NCBI RefSeq assembly: GCF_002837275.1
Contig: NZ_NXIF01000033.1
Span: 1-64,000, forward strand
Direction: 5' to 3'
From: Malaciobacter halophilus
GTDB lineage: Bacteria; Campylobacterota; Campylobacteria; Campylobacterales; Arcobacteraceae
Length of the DNA stretch: 64,000 nucleotides
Every line of letters begins with the position of its first letter. Within the stretch, counting starts at the first letter, position 1. The notes beneath the pieces are model-generated. The model worked only from the letters and a program-made list of their open reading frames with translations. It searched no databases and had not been told where the DNA came from. Position numbers and translations under genes: made by a program. This document shows positions 15,418-25,039 of this stretch, in pieces.

Positions 15418-15493
15418 TGGAGGAGGTAGCCGGACTTGAACCGACGAATATCTGATTTGCAATCAGGTGCATTACCAACTTTGCTATACCTCC
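15418..15493 (-). tRNA. tRNA-Cys (anticodon GCA)
   Basis: Read on the minus strand, acceptor GGAGGTA pairs with TACCTCC, followed by discriminator T and an encoded CCA. The anticodon loop reads TTGCAAA in the stem context CTGAT/ATCAG, giving GCA for Cys. The T arm has GGTTCAAGTCC. The U73 discriminator is the usual Cys identity base. Confidence 0.95.
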
Positions 15494-15543
15494 AAAAAAG
15501 TGGAATAGAATTATAGCAAAGATTTCTTAATATTCATTTAAAT

Positions 15544-16446
15544 TTATGGCCTATTTGCTTTTCTTTCGTGCCTTACTAAATAAATCCCAGCAAAAATTAC
15601 AATAATAGCACCTAAGATAGTTAATTTATCTGGAATATCTTTAAATATAAGCCACCCTAATATTGTAGCACTTATAATTTCCAAATATTGAAAAGATGCT
15701 AAAACAGAGGCTTTTGCATGAAAAAAAGCACTTGATATTAAAAGTTGAATTATTGTTGTAAGTACTCCTAAAATTAAAAGTATCCACCAAAAAGAGAAAT
15801 CAATTATATGAAAACTTAAAACTTCAATAGAAAAACTCTCTCCTATTAATATAAGTATTGACAAAAAGATTGTTGAAACAACTCCTACCCAAAACTGTAA
15901 ACTTATACTATTGCCAACACTTGATGCCATTCTAATAGACATTAGATATAAAGCATAGCAAACTGCAGAAGCAATAGGTAAAAAAGAGGCCATTCCATAC
16001 AAAGAGAAATTTGGTCGAATAATAATTAGTGTTCCAATCAATCCTATAACAACAGCTATTATATGATTATAAAATATTTTCTCTTTTAAAAAAAGCACTG
16101 AAAGTATTGTAAGAACCATAGGTTCAATAAAAAACAGTGCTATATTATTCGCCAATGGTAAATATCTAAGTCCCCAAAATAGAAGTATCATAGTAAGAGA
16201 AACAAAAAGTCCTAAAAAAATATATGAAACTCTAAACTTTTGAATCTTTTGCTTTACAAAAAAACTAAGTATAAATATAAATAAAGCTTGTAATAAAAAC
16301 CTTATCCATGAAATTTGTGTCGGACTAAGTGATGTTGATAAATATTTTGCAATAGCATCAGTAAAAGGCAGTAATAAAACTGCTATAAGCATAAATAGCA
16401 TACCTTTATTTACACTTTTAGGTTGTTCTAAAATATCTGTTTTCAT
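15544..16446 (-). CDS. DMT superfamily permease (EamA family)
   Basis: A 300-residue inner-membrane protein with about ten helices in two homologous EamA halves. Half one includes DAIAKYLSTSLSPTQISWIRFLLQ and the loop PLANNIALFFIEPMVLTILS; half two ends LGWLIFKDIPDKLTILGAIIVIFAGIYLV. EamA proteins export or import amino acids and other small metabolites, and no substrate can be read from the sequence. It lies 37 bases after the cupin gene on the same strand and could form a two-gene unit with it. Confidence 0.9.
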   Translation of the reverse strand: MKTDILEQPKSVNKGMLFMLIAVLLLPFTDAIAKYLSTSLSPTQISWIRFLLQALFIFILSFFVKQKIQKFRVSYIFLGLFVSLTMILLFWGLRYLPLANNIALFFIEPMVLTILSVLFLKEKIFYNHIIAVVIGLIGTLIIIRPNFSLYGMASFLPIASAVCYALYLMSIRMASSVGNSISLQFWVGVVSTIFLSILILIGESFSIEVLSFHIIDFSFWWILLILGVLTTIIQLLISSAFFHAKASVLASFQYLEIISATILGWLIFKDIPDKLTILGAIIVIFAGIYLVRHERKANRP

Positions 16447-16483
16447 TGGCGTATTATAGTTAAAATATCTTATTTTAAACTAA

Positions 16484-16882
16484 TTATAAAAGATATTCTT
16501 GATTACTTACCTCTTCAAGCCATGTTACATTGTTTCCATTTTTATTTTCTTGTATAGCAATATGACTCATTTTTGTTGTTTTTGTTGCTCCATGCCAATG
16601 TTTTTCATTTGCATCAATCCATACAATATCACCACATTTTATGTACTCTTTATCTTCTCCTTCAATTTGAATATAACCTTGTCCTGAAGTTACTATTAGT
16701 ATCTGTCCCCTTGGATGAGTATGCCATTTTGTTCTACTTTCAGGCATAAAATTAACATGTCCAAAAGATACATTTGAAGGTTCATCTGCTTCAAAAAGCA
16801 TATCTAATCCTACATCTCCAGTAAAATAATCTTTTAATTGTTCTTTTATATATGGTTGTGTTCCATTTTTTATTATTTTCAT
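16484..16882 (-). CDS. Cupin-domain protein
   Basis: A 132-residue single-domain cupin. Cupin motif 1 is WHTHPRGQILIVTSGQGYIQ and motif 2 is GDIVWIDANEKHWHGATKT; their His residues would bind one metal ion. The length and motifs match the small cupins annotated as carboxymuconolactone-associated or quercetinase-like proteins, but the substrate is unknown. It is divergent from an AraC-type regulator, which is its likely controller, and probably cotranscribed with the DMT permease downstream. Confidence 0.85.
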   Translation of the reverse strand: MKIIKNGTQPYIKEQLKDYFTGDVGLDMLFEADEPSNVSFGHVNFMPESRTKWHTHPRGQILIVTSGQGYIQIEGEDKEYIKCGDIVWIDANEKHWHGATKTTKMSHIAIQENKNGNNVTWLEEVSNQEYLL

Positions 16883-17084
16883 AAAAACTCCTATTATTTA
16901 TTTTTTAGTATATAACAAGATATTAATTTGTTCATAGAATAATTTTATAAACAGATTGCCTAATTCTCTAAATTATATGTATTATTACTATTTTAAAGGA
17001 TTGTGCAATATATATGAAGAATATTTATATTAATATATGAAAATATTTTATATAATAAACGCCATATTTATTAAAGTAGAAAAG

Positions 17085-17996
17085 ATGAAAGAGAAGATTA
17101 AAAATCTCCAAGAAGATTTATTAAAATTTATAAATAACAAATACTGCATATCAAATATTAACGGTGAAGTTAAAACACAAATTCCTAATTTAGATTTTTA
17201 TTTTTCAAATGAAAAAACTCAATTTAATACAATTATTTATGAACCTTCTATTTGTATTATTTTACAAGGAGAAAAAATAGTTGATTTTGGAAATGAAGTA
17301 TATCAATATAATTCAAATGAATATCTAATCTCTTCTACACATATACCAGCAAAAGTTAAAATAAAAAAAACTCCATATATTTCATTTAGAATAAAATTTG
17401 AATTAGAAGAGATATATAACGTCATAAAAAATATAAATCAAGAAAAACTTATCTTTAAAGAAAAATCAGAAAAAGGACTATTTTTCAATAATATTGATGA
17501 AAAACTTTTTGAACCTATTTGTAGATTAATAAAACTTCTTAATAGACAAGAAGATGAAATAAAATATTTATATCCTTTAATTATTAAAGAGATTCTGTTT
17601 ATTTTAATAAAAGACGAAAGTGGCTATTTTTTAAATAAATTTGCAATGGAAGGAACAGTATCAAATAAGATTGTAAAAACAATTTCTGATATAAAAGATA
17701 ATTTCAATAAAAAACTAAATGTAAAGCAATTAGCAAGAAATATTGATATGAGTGAATCATCTTTATATCAAAACTTCAAAACTATCACTTCTATGTCTCC
17801 TATTCAATTCCAAAAAAAGATTAGATTAGAAGAAGCAAAACTAATGCTTTTAAATCAAAATATAACAGCCTGCGAAGTTGCTTTTATTGTAGGATATGAG
17901 AGTCCTTCTCAATTTAGTAGAGAATATTCAAAAATGTTTGGGATGGCACCAAAAGCACACATAAGCTACTTAAAAAGCTTAAATAAAAAAATATAA
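17085..17996 (+). CDS. AraC-family transcriptional regulator
   Basis: A 303-residue regulator. The N-terminal half (about 25-170) is the AraC_N cupin-like domain with EPSICIILQGEKIVDFGNE. The C-terminal half holds two helix-turn-helix motifs (LNVKQLARNIDMSESSLYQN and VAFIVGYESPSQFSREYSKM). I choose ATG 17085, preceded by GAAAAG; an in-frame ATG at 17037 would add 16 residues but has no ribosome site. It is divergent from the cupin and permease genes, which are the likely targets. AraC_N regulators often control an adjacent redox or efflux gene. Confidence 0.88.
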   Translation: MKEKIKNLQEDLLKFINNKYCISNINGEVKTQIPNLDFYFSNEKTQFNTIIYEPSICIILQGEKIVDFGNEVYQYNSNEYLISSTHIPAKVKIKKTPYISFRIKFELEEIYNVIKNINQEKLIFKEKSEKGLFFNNIDEKLFEPICRLIKLLNRQEDEIKYLYPLIIKEILFILIKDESGYFLNKFAMEGTVSNKIVKTISDIKDNFNKKLNVKQLARNIDMSESSLYQNFKTITSMSPIQFQKKIRLEEAKLMLLNQNITACEVAFIVGYESPSQFSREYSKMFGMAPKAHISYLKSLNKKI

Positions 17997-18047
17997 ACAC
18001 TAAATTTTATAAACTTTATAAGAAGAAATAGTAAAGCTATTAAAAGA

Positions 18048-18053
18048 TATAAT
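18048..18053 (+). promoter_or_regulatory. Candidate -10 box for the FHA-FecR-CHASE2 unit
   Basis: A perfect TATAAT lies 38 bases before the start of the haemagglutinin-like gene. No clear -35 is present, as is common for housekeeping promoters in Campylobacterota. Confidence 0.45.
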
Positions 18054-18090
18054 TCGCTAAATATTACCAGTAACACAATGAAAGGTTTAA

Positions 18091-21000
18091 ATGATTTATA
18101 ATTTTAGTTCATGTTTTAGGATTCTAAAAGGTGGCAAAATTAGTTTAGTAGTTAGTGCACTTTTTAGTTCTTTAACACTTTGTCTTGCTTCTCCAAAAGG
18201 TGGAACTGTTACTTCTGGAACTGCAAGTATTACTCAAAATAAAACTATTACAAATATTAATCAAACATCTAATAAAGCAACTATTAATTGGCAAAATTTC
18301 TCTATTGCAGCAAATGAGACAGTTAATTTCAACCAACCAAACTCTAGTGCTATTACACTAAACCGAGTTATTGGAAATGAGAAAAGTATTATAAATGGTG
18401 CATTAAATGCAAATGGACAAGTTTGGATACTAAATTCAAATGGTGTTTTATTTGGTAAAAATGCAAGTATAAATACAAGTGGAATCTTAGCAACAACAGC
18501 AGAACTTTCTGATAAAGATTTTAATGCAAAAAATTATAGTTTCAAAAATGCAACAGCAAACTCTATTATAAATCAAGGAACAATAGAAGTGATAAATAAT
18601 GGTTCAGTTATATTAGCTTCAAATGAGACTATAAATGAAGGAACTATCAAAGCTATTAAAGGAAATGTTCACTTAGTTGGAACTGATTCATATTCAATTA
18701 ATCTAAATGGAAACTCATTAGTTAATCTTAGAGTAAATAAAGGTGTTCTTGATGCTATGGTATCAAATAAAGGAACTATCAAAGCAAATGGTGGAAAGAT
18801 TTATTTAACAACTAATGCAGTAAATGAATTATTAAAAGGGGTAGTAAACAATACAGGGATTATTGAAGCTAATAGTATTGATGATTTAACAGGTAATATT
18901 GAATTATTTGCTCATGGTGGTGAAACTAATATAGATGGTAAAATAACTGCTAATAATGGTTTTATTGAAACTTCTGGTTCACATATTAACTTTTCAGATA
19001 CTCTTGATATAAATGCAGGTAATGGTGGTACTTGGCTTATTGATCCAAATAATATAAAAATTGTATCTGATGCAATAGCTGAAGCAAATGTAGACTACTT
19101 AGGAGCACCATTATATTCATCATTAGATGATTCAACAATTTTACGTGCATCAACTATTGAAACACAATTAAATAATGGAACTAGTGTTATTGTTGAAACA
19201 TCTGAAGCTGGAACAAACTCTCAAGCTGGTGATATTTTTTTACAAACAAGTATCAACAAAACTTCAGGTGCTGATGCAACTTTGACACTAAAAGCACATA
19301 GAAATATATTATTTGCAGATAGCTATAATTTAAATTCAATTGGGAGTATCTTAAGTACAACAAATAAACTAAATGTAGTTTTATGGTCTGATAGTGATGG
19401 AAATAACAATGGTTCAGTATGGTTACCTCAAAACTCAAATATCTCAACAAATGGAGGACATATTCACATAGCAGGAGGGGCTAGTTCTAAAACATGGAAT
19501 GGATTAACTGTTGGGAACTCTTATGCTGTTGGAAGTAGTTTTTCTTCAAAAGAAGGAAACTCCATAGCAAGAGGTTCTTCAATCAATGGTAATATTAGTG
19601 CTAATGGTTTAACTTCAGGTGGAGATATTTTTATAAAAGGTCTTGCTAGCCAATCAAATTATTATATTAGTGCAAGAGGAGTTAGTTTATCTGGTAGTGT
19701 TACAACAAACCATGGAGGAAATATAACAATAGAAGGTAAAGCAAAAGGTGCTTCTGATGCTGTTGCTATTGGAGATAAAGCATCTTCATTAACTGATGGT
19801 TCAGCTATTGTAAGAGTTGAAAATGGAACTATTTTAATAAATGGCTATGGAAATACGGCAAATGCAAATAGTAATTCATTTGAACTAAATAATGGCTCTT
19901 ATATAGATGATAATGCAACAGGATTAGGAACACTTATTATAAATGCAAATACAGATGAAATATTTGCTGATTCTACTTCATACATAAAAATCAATAAATT
20001 GTTGTTAAAAAATGGTTTTACTACAACCTTAACTAATGCAAATAATAATATAGGAATATTAGCAGCAACAAATATGGCTAACTTAACTTATAAAGACAAA
20101 AATACTATTACAATAGGTAGTATAAATGGAGTTAATGGTATAACAGCTAATGGTGATATTAATCTTAGTGCATCAAGTATTGTAATTAGTGAACCAGTTT
20201 CAAATGGTTCAAATATACTAACACTTGATGCTAGTGGAACTATATATGATAATTTAAATGGATATATAAATACAAATAATCTTCTTTTAAAAAATGGTAG
20301 AATTATTCTTGATAATATAAAAAATGATACTTCTGTAATAGCTGCTAATAACTTAACTAGTCTATCTTATATAGATGCAAATGAACTTACTATTGGAAAA
20401 ATTAATTCTACAAATGGAATAACAGCACTAGAGGCTATAAATATTTCAACAAATACAGGCAATTTAACTATTAATAATAATATAAATACATCAGATATTG
20501 GAACTTCTGCCATAGTTTTAAATGCAGGGAAAAGTCAAGTAGCAGGAATAGCAACAGGAGGAGATATTAAATATATTTCAGGAAATATTTCAATGAGTAA
20601 TACAAGTAGAGCGACTTTTTATACGGGTAGTATAAATGGAAGCTCTATAAACACTTTAATATCTAATGGTAACTTTAGGTATAACAGTGATGAGAGTTCA
20701 AATGGTTATGATACAGTAAACTCTTCTTTAAATTCAGGATTTTATACCCTTTACAGAGAACAACCAACTATTTATGTTACTGCTAATAATGACTCTTTTA
20801 AATATAATGGTAGTTCTTATATAGGAGGAAATGGTGTCACTTATTCTGGCTTTGTAAATAATGATACATCTTCAATTTTAAATGGTAAATTAGTTTATAC
20901 AGGGACTTCTCAAGGTGCAAGTAAAGCTGGAATATATACAATAAGTGCAAATGGTTTGTCAAATAATCTTGGATATGATATTACTTTTATAAATGGACAA

Positions 21001-21894
21001 TTAGAGATCAAAGAAGATAATACAAAAGCCAATGTAATAATAGAAGATAAAATAATACCTAAAAATAACCAAGTCTCAAAAGTTAAAATAACAACAAATA
21101 ATGATTCACTTATACCTCTTAATTCAATAAAAAATTTATCCATAAAAGATTTAGATGAAAATCAAACAAAACAGACTTTAGATTTAGTCACTTCAAGTAA
21201 AAATTTACAAGAAAAGAGAACTAATAAAACTACAACAATAAATAAAACAAAACAAAACAAAACAATAGATAATCTAATAGAAAATAAAACAAAAAATCAA
21301 GTAAAAGAAAAAACAAAAACAATCAACACAATAAAAGATACAAAAATAAGTAATTTAAACAAAAAACAAACTAAAAATGAGCAAACTGAACAAAGTTCAA
21401 ACTCAACTAAAAATTCAGATGAAAAAACAATTAAAAAAAATCCAAAAACAAATACCTCAAAACAAAATACACCTAAACAAAACACATATGAATTAGATGA
21501 AGCACAAATAGAGATTCGTGTTAATGAAAAGGGTAAAATTATATTCAGTAAATCTGATATTGAAGCAGTAATTGAAAAAAACGGTCAATTAATTTTATCA
21601 AATAATACAGCTGATGTATTAAAAACCATGGGAATATCAATAAAAACAATCTCAGTAAAAAATAGTAAAGTTGAAGTTGTTATTATTGATAAAAGAAGTA
21701 CATCTAAATATAGTGCAACTTTAACAAATGGTAACTCTTTACCAAAATATCTAATATTAGATTCTAAAACAGGAAAAATTACTGGAACTTTACCTAAAAA
21801 GATAAAAGAAGTTAATATTAGTTTAAAAGCTACGAGCAAAGATGGAACAATTAGAGTTTTAAATTTAGAAATGAGGATAAATAAATATGAATAA
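18091..21894 (+). CDS. Filamentous haemagglutinin-like exoprotein (TPS domain, MBG domain)
   Basis: A 1267-residue secreted protein whose start has AAAGG 5 bases upstream. An extended signal (1-33, ending SLTLCLA) precedes a two-partner-secretion domain: TINWQNFSIAANETVNFNQP, NGQVWILNSNGVLFG and NTSGILATTAELSD are classic. A beta-helix region follows (about 200-880) with an imperfect tandem repeat at 615-795. Residues about 890-975 form an MBG-like domain (YVTANNDSFKYNG). A Lys/Thr/Asn-rich low-complexity stretch (about 1010-1135) leads to a C-terminal folded segment with an Ig-like GKITGTLPKK motif. It overlaps the FecR-domain gene by 8 bases. No FhaC/TpsB transporter gene is adjacent. Confidence 0.88.
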   Translation: MIYNFSSCFRILKGGKISLVVSALFSSLTLCLASPKGGTVTSGTASITQNKTITNINQTSNKATINWQNFSIAANETVNFNQPNSSAITLNRVIGNEKSIINGALNANGQVWILNSNGVLFGKNASINTSGILATTAELSDKDFNAKNYSFKNATANSIINQGTIEVINNGSVILASNETINEGTIKAIKGNVHLVGTDSYSINLNGNSLVNLRVNKGVLDAMVSNKGTIKANGGKIYLTTNAVNELLKGVVNNTGIIEANSIDDLTGNIELFAHGGETNIDGKITANNGFIETSGSHINFSDTLDINAGNGGTWLIDPNNIKIVSDAIAEANVDYLGAPLYSSLDDSTILRASTIETQLNNGTSVIVETSEAGTNSQAGDIFLQTSINKTSGADATLTLKAHRNILFADSYNLNSIGSILSTTNKLNVVLWSDSDGNNNGSVWLPQNSNISTNGGHIHIAGGASSKTWNGLTVGNSYAVGSSFSSKEGNSIARGSSINGNISANGLTSGGDIFIKGLASQSNYYISARGVSLSGSVTTNHGGNITIEGKAKGASDAVAIGDKASSLTDGSAIVRVENGTILINGYGNTANANSNSFELNNGSYIDDNATGLGTLIINANTDEIFADSTSYIKINKLLLKNGFTTTLTNANNNIGILAATNMANLTYKDKNTITIGSINGVNGITANGDINLSASSIVISEPVSNGSNILTLDASGTIYDNLNGYINTNNLLLKNGRIILDNIKNDTSVIAANNLTSLSYIDANELTIGKINSTNGITALEAINISTNTGNLTINNNINTSDIGTSAIVLNAGKSQVAGIATGGDIKYISGNISMSNTSRATFYTGSINGSSINTLISNGNFRYNSDESSNGYDTVNSSLNSGFYTLYREQPTIYVTANNDSFKYNGSSYIGGNGVTYSGFVNNDTSSILNGKLVYTGTSQGASKAGIYTISANGLSNNLGYDITFINGQLEIKEDNTKANVIIEDKIIPKNNQVSKVKITTNNDSLIPLNSIKNLSIKDLDENQTKQTLDLVTSSKNLQEKRTNKTTTINKTKQNKTIDNLIENKTKNQVKEKTKTINTIKDTKISNLNKKQTKNEQTEQSSNSTKNSDEKTIKKNPKTNTSKQNTPKQNTYELDEAQIEIRVNEKGKIIFSKSDIEAVIEKNGQLILSNNTADVLKTMGISIKTISVKNSKVEVVIIDKRSTSKYSATLTNGNSLPKYLILDSKTGKITGTLPKKIKEVNISLKATSKDGTIRVLNLEMRINKYE
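19933..20475 (+). repeat. Imperfect tandem repeat inside the haemagglutinin-like gene
   Basis: Two units of roughly 85-95 codons align: each has an N/D-rich lead, then NKLLLKNG or NNLLLKNG, an AATNMANLTY or AANNLTSLSY segment, TITIGSINGVNGITA or LTIGKINSTNGITA, and a closing beta strand. This is the periodicity expected of a beta-helix passenger. Confidence 0.7.
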
Positions 21895-23035
21895 AAAAAG
21901 CTATATTATTTTTTTAGGAATTTTGATATTAGGTATTATTGGTTTTATATATTATAAAATTGAAGATTCAAAAAATATATTTGCTCAAATTGTTTCTAAA
22001 GTAGGTGAAGTTAATTTAGTTAACGAAAAAGGAGAAATTCTAACAAAAGTAAAAGAAGGCTATAAAATTAAAATAGGAGAGTTTTTAGAAACAAAAGAGA
22101 ACTCTTCTGTAACAATAAAATTTATTGATAATTCTATTGCCATTATCTCTGAAAAATCATTAGTTTCTATGAAGAGATTGAAATATGATAAAGACTCTAA
22201 AAAATCAACTACAAATATAATGCTTTTAAAAGGAAAAATTGAATCTACTGTAACTAATCAAGATACTTTTGGTTCTGAATATAAAGTAATAACTCCAACT
22301 TTACAACTTGCAGTTAGAGGAACAGTATTTAATGTAATTTTTGAAGATAAAGAGTCAAGAGCTTTTGTAACAAAAGGAAAGATTTTAGCTTCAGATGGTG
22401 AAAACTCTTTAACTTTAAATGCAGGATATGGTGTAGTTGTAAACGATAATACTAAGTTAAGTTCACCAATAAAACTGTTAAATAAACCAACAATAGATTT
22501 AAATGAATTAAATATTAAATATTATAAAAAATATATCTCATGGAAAAAGCTTAAAAATGCAGTTAAATATCATGTTCAAATATATACTACATCAAAATAC
22601 AATGCGCTAATTTATGATAAATATGTTAATAATACACAATTAGATATAGATAACTTAAAAGATGGGAAATATAAAATAAGCATTCAAGCTGTTGATAAAT
22701 ATGGATTAGAAGGATTTAAAATTATAAAAAATTTCAATGTTAAATCTAATCCACTTCCACCAAATGTAAATGAACCAAGAGCTAATTTAAAATCAAAAAT
22801 GATTTTATTTAGTTGGGAAAAATCAGTAGATGCAAATAAGTATATATTAGAAATATCAAGAATGAGAAGTTTTAAAAATATTCTAATTAGAGTTACTAAC
22901 TTAAACTCTTCATTAGATAAGATCTCTTTGCCATTACAAAAAGGAGAATATTTTATTAGAATGTCAAGTGTTGATAGCTCTGGTATTAGAGGACCATACA
23001 GTAAAATACATCAATTTAAAGTAGATAACAAATGA
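21887..23035 (+). CDS. FecR-domain membrane-anchored protein with fibronectin-like repeats
   Basis: A 382-residue protein with one N-terminal membrane helix (YIIFLGILILGIIGFIYYKI) that probably anchors it on the periplasmic side. Residues about 33-165 form a FecR domain: VSKVGEVNLVNEKGE, SSVTIKFIDNSIAIISEKS and the signature LAVRGTVFNVIFED. The rest (about 185-382) contains two fibronectin-like modules, each starting with a WKK/WEKS-x-(N/D)A segment and ending YKISIQAVDKYG or YFIRMSSVDSSG. It is not the sigma-regulator type of FecR: no sigma factor or TonB receptor is nearby. It overlaps the genes on both sides by 4-8 bases, so all three act as one unit. Confidence 0.85.
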   Translation: MNKKSYIIFLGILILGIIGFIYYKIEDSKNIFAQIVSKVGEVNLVNEKGEILTKVKEGYKIKIGEFLETKENSSVTIKFIDNSIAIISEKSLVSMKRLKYDKDSKKSTTNIMLLKGKIESTVTNQDTFGSEYKVITPTLQLAVRGTVFNVIFEDKESRAFVTKGKILASDGENSLTLNAGYGVVVNDNTKLSSPIKLLNKPTIDLNELNIKYYKKYISWKKLKNAVKYHVQIYTTSKYNALIYDKYVNNTQLDIDNLKDGKYKISIQAVDKYGLEGFKIIKNFNVKSNPLPPNVNEPRANLKSKMILFSWEKSVDANKYILEISRMRSFKNILIRVTNLNSSLDKISLPLQKGEYFIRMSSVDSSGIRGPYSKIHQFKVDNK

Positions 23036-24798
23036 GAAAAACAGATAAATTATACTTCAAATATAAGATTTGGATAGTTTTACTATCTTTAAGTATCACT
23101 TATGCTTTTTCCCATACAACAATATATGATAAATTAAAAAACTACTTTAATGATACTATACAATACTTAGCATCTAAAGAGAAATATTTTACGGATTCAG
23201 TTGTTATTGATATAAATGATACCTCTTTAAAAGTATTACAAAAAGATTTTGGACACTGGCCTTATACACGAGATAAATACGCACTAATAGTTGAATTTTT
23301 ACAATCTATGAATGTTAAAAATATTGTATTTGATATTAAATTTTTAGACCCAAGAGCTGGAGATGATATTTTTAGAAAAACAATTGATAAATATAATAAT
23401 ATTTTCTTTGTAACAAGTACTTTACAAGAAGAAATTCCAATAAATAAAGAAGAAAAAAAGATATTAAAACAAATCTCTTGGGGTAAGCATTTAAATATAC
23501 CAACATTAAAATATAATAGTTTACTTCTTCCTCATACTAATGTCTTTGATGAAGATACAATTTATAAATTTGGAATCACTTCAGTTTTAGGAGACAGTGA
23601 TAATTTTATAAGGTCAATTCCACTGTTATATAATATTGATTTTAATATATTCCCATCCTTACTTCTTAGGCTTCAATCTTTACATAAAAATATACCAAAA
23701 ATAGAGTATAACCCAAAAACAAATAAACTTTTTATAGATAAAAATACTTGGCATGTTGATAATAAAAGTAGAATTAAACTATTTTACCCTAAAAATGCAA
23801 ACTCAATTATAAGTATTCCTTTTTATAAAATCAGTGAAGTTGCACTAAATAAAAAATCAATCTCAAATAAAAATTTTCTAAAAAATAAAACAGTCTTTAT
23901 AGGTAGTTCAGCTTTTTTATCAGATAGAATAAATACTCCAAGAGGAGCTATGTCAGGCTCTTATTTACTTGCAATTGCATATGAATCACTAAAAAATAAT
24001 CTAATTATAAAAAATAACAATATTGTAAATACTTTACTACTATTAATAGCCGTTTTATTCTCTTTTTATTTAAGTAATAAAAAAGAGATATATAAAAAAT
24101 CAGTAGCAATTACTACATTATTAACAATTTTAGCAACTTCAATTTATGGTTTTATTTTCTTAAAACTATTTTATTTAGAGACTAATGTATTTTTTTCAAT
24201 ACTAATAATTATATTTTCAATTCTACTAACAATAGTAAGTCATCAGCTTTCTTTATCTAAATACAATCAAAAACTAATTAATGAAACTAAAAGATTATAT
24301 AATGAAGCAAATTGTGATACTTTAACAGGATTGCTAAATAGACGTGGATTTGATGAGCAGTATGAAAAGTATAAAGAGCTTACTTATACAAAAAATATAC
24401 ACTCTTCATGTTTAGCAGTTATTGATTTAGATCACTTTAAAAGTGTTAATGATACTTATGGTCATGATATAGGAGATTTAGTTCTACAAAGTTTTGGAAA
24501 TCTTTTAAAAGAGCAGTTAAGAGATATTGATATTCCTGCAAGATGGGGTGGAGAAGAGTTTGTGATTTTACTAAAAGATACAACATTAGATGAATCAATT
24601 ATTGTACTAAATAGAGTTAGACAAGTATGCAAACAAATGGATATAAAAACTCCTCAAGGAAAATTAAATATTACTATTAGTATAGGAGTAACACAAATAG
24701 AAAACTTTTCTAAAACAGTTGATTTGTATGTAAAACAAGCTGATATTGGTTTATATCAAGCAAAAAAATCAGGAAGAGACAAAGTTTGTATCGCTTAA
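23032..24798 (+). CDS. CHASE2-GGDEF diguanylate cyclase
   Basis: A 588-residue membrane protein. After an N-terminal helix comes a CHASE2 sensor (about 50-310) with VVIDINDTSLKVL and GHWPYTRDKYA, then three closely spaced helices (about 328-405). The cytoplasmic GGDEF domain has LTGLLNRRGF and the active-site loop GGEEF (506-510). An I-site RxxD (RDID) sits 5 residues before it, so product inhibition is likely. The protein should make c-di-GMP. CHASE2 receptors commonly sit beside FecR-domain proteins, and here the gene overlaps the FecR gene by 4 bases. It may link the state of the exoprotein or envelope to c-di-GMP. Confidence 0.92.
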   Translation: MRKTDKLYFKYKIWIVLLSLSITYAFSHTTIYDKLKNYFNDTIQYLASKEKYFTDSVVIDINDTSLKVLQKDFGHWPYTRDKYALIVEFLQSMNVKNIVFDIKFLDPRAGDDIFRKTIDKYNNIFFVTSTLQEEIPINKEEKKILKQISWGKHLNIPTLKYNSLLLPHTNVFDEDTIYKFGITSVLGDSDNFIRSIPLLYNIDFNIFPSLLLRLQSLHKNIPKIEYNPKTNKLFIDKNTWHVDNKSRIKLFYPKNANSIISIPFYKISEVALNKKSISNKNFLKNKTVFIGSSAFLSDRINTPRGAMSGSYLLAIAYESLKNNLIIKNNNIVNTLLLLIAVLFSFYLSNKKEIYKKSVAITTLLTILATSIYGFIFLKLFYLETNVFFSILIIIFSILLTIVSHQLSLSKYNQKLINETKRLYNEANCDTLTGLLNRRGFDEQYEKYKELTYTKNIHSSCLAVIDLDHFKSVNDTYGHDIGDLVLQSFGNLLKEQLRDIDIPARWGGEEFVILLKDTTLDESIIVLNRVRQVCKQMDIKTPQGKLNITISIGVTQIENFSKTVDLYVKQADIGLYQAKKSGRDKVCIA

Positions 24799-24849
24799 AA
24801 TTAGTTTTATTAAAATAAAAAATTTGATTTATTAAATTTGTTAGATAAG

Positions 24850-24938
24850 TGGCAGTGAGTGAGGGATTCGAACCCTCGGAGGCGTGAACCTCGCCGGTTT
24901 TCAAAACCGGTACTTTCGACCAACTCAGTCAACTCACT
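24850..24938 (-). tRNA. tRNA-Ser (anticodon TGA)
   Basis: On the minus strand, acceptor AGTGAGT pairs with ACTCACT, with discriminator G and an encoded CCA. The anticodon arm CCGGTTTTGAAAACCGG gives anticodon TGA. A long variable arm and the T loop GGTTCGAATCC fit a class II serine tRNA. Confidence 0.95.
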
Positions 24939-24952
24939 ACAACATTAATAAG

Positions 24953-25039
24953 TGGTGCGAATGGTGAGAATCGAACTCACACTCCGAAACCGGAATGGGA
25001 TTTTAAGTCCCACGCGTCTACCTATTCCGCCACACTCGC
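24953..25039 (-). tRNA. tRNA-Leu (anticodon TAA)
   Basis: On the minus strand, acceptor GCGAGTG pairs with CATTCGC (one G-T pair), with discriminator A and an encoded CCA. The anticodon arm TGGGACTTAAAATCCCA gives TAA. A long variable arm is present. It lies 14 bases upstream of tRNA-Ser and is probably cotranscribed with it. Confidence 0.95.

Follow-up and report, generated by a model that had tools for sequence, protein, structure and literature searches.

Why should a gene for an exported adhesin-like protein lead into genes for a FecR-domain protein and a CHASE2 diguanylate cyclase, with no transporter gene beside it? The locus lies in Malaciobacter halophilus (NCBI RefSeq assembly GCF_002837275.1), in the first 64,000 nucleotides of contig NZ_NXIF01000033.1, the whole stretch that was analysed and that we refer to as the window. 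A sequence-only reading had described three genes overlapping by 4-8 bases, and had proposed that the surface or secretion status of the exoprotein is read by FecR/CHASE2 and turned into c-di-GMP. The unit consists of the following genes:

18091..21894, + strand: orphan TpsA exoprotein, 1267 aa (TPS domain PF05860, TIGR01901; orthologues in 6 genomes)
21887..23035, + strand: FecR-domain protein, 382 aa (PF04773, 2.4e-14)
23032..24798, + strand: CHASE2-GGDEF diguanylate cyclase, 588 aa (PF05226, 1.2e-28; PF00990, 1.7e-42)

Coordinates, + strands, overlaps (TpsA/FecR 8 nt, FecR/CHASE2 4 nt) and Pfam domains were all confirmed. The neighbouring genes, which were read and Pfam-scanned, contained no TpsB, sigma factor or TonB receptor gene adjoining the unit, again as had been claimed. 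The trio is probably co-transcribed. Promoter and terminator scans around the unit performed no better than shuffles, and no riboswitch was found near it.

The systematic survey of the trio covered Campylobacterota. The order TpsA-FecR-CHASE2/GGDEF occurred in 7 of 104 Arcobacteraceae genomes, this one included, in three genera and at two chromosomal sites, and among the 104 the trio was all-or-none. Gene adjacency, the non-conservation of which had been set beforehand as refuting the proposal, was conserved, with the same order in 7/7 trio genomes, and the three genes form a conserved block. Close FecR orthologues (67-78% identity) were present in 7/104 genomes, the next best match reaching ~30% over part of the protein, and CHASE2 proteins of ~590 aa in exactly the seven trio genomes. 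The FecR/CHASE2 overlap of 4 nt is kept in all seven; the TpsA/FecR junction varies between overlaps (8, 8 and 4 nt) and gaps (1, 17, 74 and 74 nt). Purifying selection acts on each of the three genes (dN/dS about 0.17-0.48), least strictly on TpsA, and the trees of TpsA, FecR and the cyclase each group the three congeners. Judged by this recurrence and selection, the trio arrangement is beyond chance. In a comparison of 397 sampled Campylobacterota, made by eye among the TPS matches listed (weaker ones fall outside it), adjoining TPS and CHASE2 matches belonged to the Arcobacteraceae trio only. A genome-contig search returned one close relative only, Arcobacter sp. CECT 8985.

In this genus, the unit is located upstream of ilvD, in an interval bounded by tRNA genes:

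15418..15493, - strand: tRNA-Cys, left edge of the interval
24850..25039, - strand: tRNA-Ser and tRNA-Leu, right edge of the interval

In two other genera, it lies between genes for a 624-aa protein and a 637-aa protein (HtpG by sequence). The tRNA-bounded site carries neither the unit nor remnants of it in three of six congeners. What the interval (15418-25039) contains differs between members of the genus: in this genome, genes for a DMT-type exporter, a cupin and an AraC regulator accompany the unit, and in congeners it holds the unit alone or the exporter alone.

The FecR protein comprises an N-terminal anchor (residues 3-26 by hydropathy), a FecR domain (residues 67-166) and a fibronectin/Ig-like second half, in which the Pfam matches to Ig_J and Y_Y_Y were weak and below cut-off. 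The anchor is the single membrane segment, and because almost no residues precede it, the protein has no cytoplasmic anti-sigma domain. No linked sigma factor or TonB receptor was found among the window neighbours or in the ORF lists of the orthologous loci. FecI/FecR (FecIRA) cell-surface signalling was rejected, since sigma factor, receptor and anti-sigma segment are all missing. Pfam gave no LysM match in the protein, and comparison of the FecR profile with solved structures yielded nothing useful. The predicted FecR fold (pLDDT 47) was too poor and was left unused.

The lack of FecR partners had been pointed out in the sequence-only reading. Their absence nearby stands, but a lone FecR protein is not odd, because FecR and CHASE2 are a known pair. 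The BiofilmReg operon of Burkholderia encodes a response regulator, a LysM-FecR protein and a CHASE2 histidine kinase, and a mutant in the operon's regulator was without biofilm (PMC5192318). In Campylobacterota, adenylate-cyclase clusters combine a CHASE2 cyclase with FecR and TPR proteins (PMC9239204). We found FecR relatives by tblastn (22-24% identity) in large plasmids of Cupriavidus, Caballeronia, Novosphingobium, Eleftheria and Paraburkholderia, and at all seven Proteobacteria loci inspected the relative was directly upstream of a CHASE2 gene. Six of the CHASE2 products, scanned with Pfam, were CHASE2 histidine kinases, and the seventh is annotated as CHASE2. The trio has the same placement, with FecR directly upstream of CHASE2, and the proposed FecR/CHASE2 sensor pair thereby fits the published ones. 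By sequence comparison, the trio FecR is one partner of a known sensory pair and no stray anti-sigma factor. The predicted cytoplasmic output of the pair differs between systems, being a kinase, an adenylate cyclase or, as in the trio, a diguanylate cyclase. A FecR-CHASE2 adenylate/guanylate cyclase locus is also present on contig C40 of this genome (L077:4276-7358), where a pair of small genes, of which one is similar to FecR, is divergent from the CHASE2 adenylate/guanylate cyclase gene.

The cyclase has a cluster of membrane segments at residues 324-409 (hydropathy). Its functional motifs were placed by alignment of the 7 orthologues:

24520..24561, + strand: I-site RDID (residues 497-500) and active-site GGEEF (residues 506-510)

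Since GGEEF is invariant and the RxxD I-site is kept in all seven orthologues, with key positions invariant, the enzyme is predicted to be active and product-inhibited. FecR and CHASE2 most likely constitute a periplasmic sensor with c-di-GMP as the output.

The product of the first gene has the build of a TPS exoprotein, with a hydrophobic signal segment (residues 15-35 by hydropathy) ahead of an N-terminal TPS domain, and it matches adhes_NPXG (TIGR01901, 5.5e-22). The following regions were located along it:

18193..18942, + strand: TPS secretion domain, residues 35-284 (Pfam PF05860, 1.3e-29)
20764..21012, + strand: residues 892-974, which align with the MBG domain found in the G082 orthologue
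21463..21891, + strand: C-terminal Ig-like (He_PIG) domain (PF05345, 1.8e-7)

The MBG domain itself (PF18676, 8e-9) was scored in the G082 orthologue. Common to the trio TpsAs are a low-complexity linker and the conserved Ig-like C-terminal domain, modelled as a beta-sandwich of moderate confidence (pLDDT 67); a fold search with the model gave no match at E<=0.001. The TpsB-linked TpsAs that were compared are without this type of C-terminal domain, and most of them end in an NGG(V/I)xLPxG(V/S)-type motif. We rejected the idea that the domain is private to the trio, as the same domain is found near the C-terminus of giant adhesins of 1,470-3,060 aa (T1SS-type), which start with LEPR/DUF4347, contain Ig and cadherin-like repeats and have neighbouring genes that resemble type I secretion parts. 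Judged by this recurrence, it is a mobile adhesin domain, not exclusive to the unit. It also evolves faster than FecR (42-66% vs 67-78% identity among orthologues). LapG-type release of TpsA was likewise rejected, the LapG-type AAG site ([TPAV]AAG) being absent from all 7 trio TpsAs.

How the exoprotein leaves the cell depends on TpsB. The earlier description of a unit without TpsB holds for its surroundings, as no TpsB gene adjoins the trio in the window or at the 6 orthologous loci, but probably not for the genome as a whole. A ShlB profile, which matches 55 of the 104 genomes of the family, 51 of them above the curated cut-off, found no TpsB in this assembly. With a TpsB protein as the query, however, contigs C39 and C94 were both seen to open on the final 35 codons of a tpsB gene (91% identity to the TpsB of genome G063). 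A second tpsA is cut by the end of contig C64, with 90% identity over 153 aa to the tpsA linked with the G063 tpsB. The starts of C39 and C94 are identical over 138 bp (L075:1-138, L076:1-138) and divergent after, which suggests two near-identical tpsB copies in the genome. The simplest reading is that two or more near-identical tpsA-tpsB loci broke the assembly, in which case tpsB would lie in the gaps; a genome devoid of TpsB was rejected as an assembly gap. In each of the six other trio genomes, tpsA-tpsB loci occur away from the trio. With this genome counted as a carrier, TpsB occurs in 7/7 trio genomes vs about 52/104 overall, with p = 0.006 valid only if the genomes were independent, which they are not. 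Export of orphan TpsAs by an unlinked TpsB is documented for Bordetella FhaS/FhaL via FhaC and for Neisseria TpsB2 (PMC10449530). The TpsB-linked TpsA loci that were scanned are near 7TMR-DISM histidine kinases, most with an adjoining response regulator (L060, L061, L062, L064, L067, L069). In genome G079, the tpsA that lies beside tpsB is split into two frames by an in-frame stop (L070:6755-8871), and G081 carries a second orphan tpsA of non-trio type, with no linked tpsB (L082:3778-7077, matching Arcobacter sp. CECT 8985).

As it is inherited as one block in several related species, the trio probably allows the cell to translate a cue from its surface or envelope into a signal of the biofilm type. 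The best explanation, which we put forward tentatively, is envelope sensing by FecR-CHASE2 with TpsA on the input side, either read directly or reporting an envelope cue. TpsA would leave the cell through an unlinked TpsB, with its Ig-like C-terminus emerging last and perhaps retained in the periplasm close to the outer membrane. FecR, fixed to the membrane by its anchor, would read this end, or the cue that TpsA reports, and pass the signal to the periplasmic CHASE2 domain, which would set c-di-GMP synthesis and, in turn, attachment or biofilm. In a stricter version, which is rather less likely than not, TpsA would itself be the ligand, and the export, retention or engagement of a surface filament would be written into c-di-GMP. 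An input role of the exoprotein itself is plausible because TpsA leads the unit, never separates from FecR-CHASE2 and carries a special C-terminal end, and because the outer-membrane NsrA acts upstream of CHASE2 cyclases as a precedent (PMC13001267). Against it, the C-terminal domain also occurs in giant adhesins and evolves faster than FecR, and the TpsA/FecR overlap is not found in all orthologues.

Moreover, the link of TpsA to FecR as an input rests on gene order, and the exoprotein could be an output or be co-regulated. FecR/CHASE2 would then sense an unrelated envelope cue, and the adhesin would be made together with an attachment-promoting c-di-GMP signal. Such an output role, possible but hardly probable in our view, agrees with the FecR-CHASE2 pairs elsewhere, which occur without a TpsA neighbour (inspected loci; PMC5192318, PMC9239204), and with TPS adhesins such as CdrA being known c-di-GMP outputs and adhesins common c-di-GMP targets (PMC5422565). 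It accounts less well for an exoprotein gene that comes first in the unit, with its special C-terminal domain, and for a trio that never splits in 104 genomes. It is unlikely that an orphan TpsA and a FecR-CHASE2-cyclase pair merely travel as a block, with no functional contact. The variable tRNA interval in one genus, the other site in two others and the varying TpsA-FecR spacing would suit such passive neighbours, but all seven genomes retain the full trio in unchanged order across two sites, three of the seven show a TpsA/FecR overlap, and each gene is under purifying selection. Export of TpsA without any TpsB, via FecR or another route, is highly improbable: it would match the absence of a linked TpsB from every trio genome and of a ShlB match from this assembly, but not the tpsB 3' ends at two contig starts, the unlinked TpsB in all other trio genomes or the canonical TPS domain.

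To our knowledge, the signals sensed by CHASE2 domains are largely unknown. In the trio, a CHASE2 cyclase is always packed with a candidate exported protein and a periplasmic go-between, which makes the question of CHASE2 input directly testable in culturable Arcobacteraceae. If TpsA is on the input side, a surface protein would feed into c-di-GMP and not only obey it, the reverse of the CdrA/LapD direction.

By domain content, the trio is a FecR-CHASE2 module variant whose output enzyme is a diguanylate cyclase and whose third member is an exported TPS protein. It shares with BiofilmReg the placement of a FecR-domain gene immediately ahead of the gene for a CHASE2 sensor (PMC5192318), but it lacks a linked response regulator and a CHASE2 histidine kinase, and its FecR gave no LysM match; the trio instead has a diguanylate cyclase for output, along with an additional TPS exoprotein. 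The Campylobacterota CHASE2 adenylate cyclase cluster is from the same phylum and also has FecR and CHASE2 genes together, but its output is an adenylate/guanylate cyclase and it has no TPS exoprotein (PMC9239204). Like the Bordetella and Neisseria orphan TpsAs, the trio TpsA has no linked transporter, with TpsB probably elsewhere in the genome; the available part of that source describes no accompanying sensory genes (PMC10449530). Pseudomonas aeruginosa CdrA/LapG/LapD also couples a TPS adhesin to c-di-GMP, but there c-di-GMP controls the adhesin, whereas the trio TpsA is without the LapG-type site (PMC5422565). The Sinorhizobium NsrA-CHASE2 cyclases likewise place a surface-side protein upstream of a CHASE2 cyclase, but NsrA is a beta-barrel, the product is cAMP, and no FecR takes part in the pathway as described (PMC13001267). 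What is new is that the FecR-CHASE2 pair here comes with two constant additions, an exported adhesin-like protein and a diguanylate cyclase as output. A possible counterpart of the trio was noticed in Eleftheria terrae (L118:7713-16795), where a gene encoding a large, SdrD B-like surface protein comes after the FecR-CHASE2 pair.
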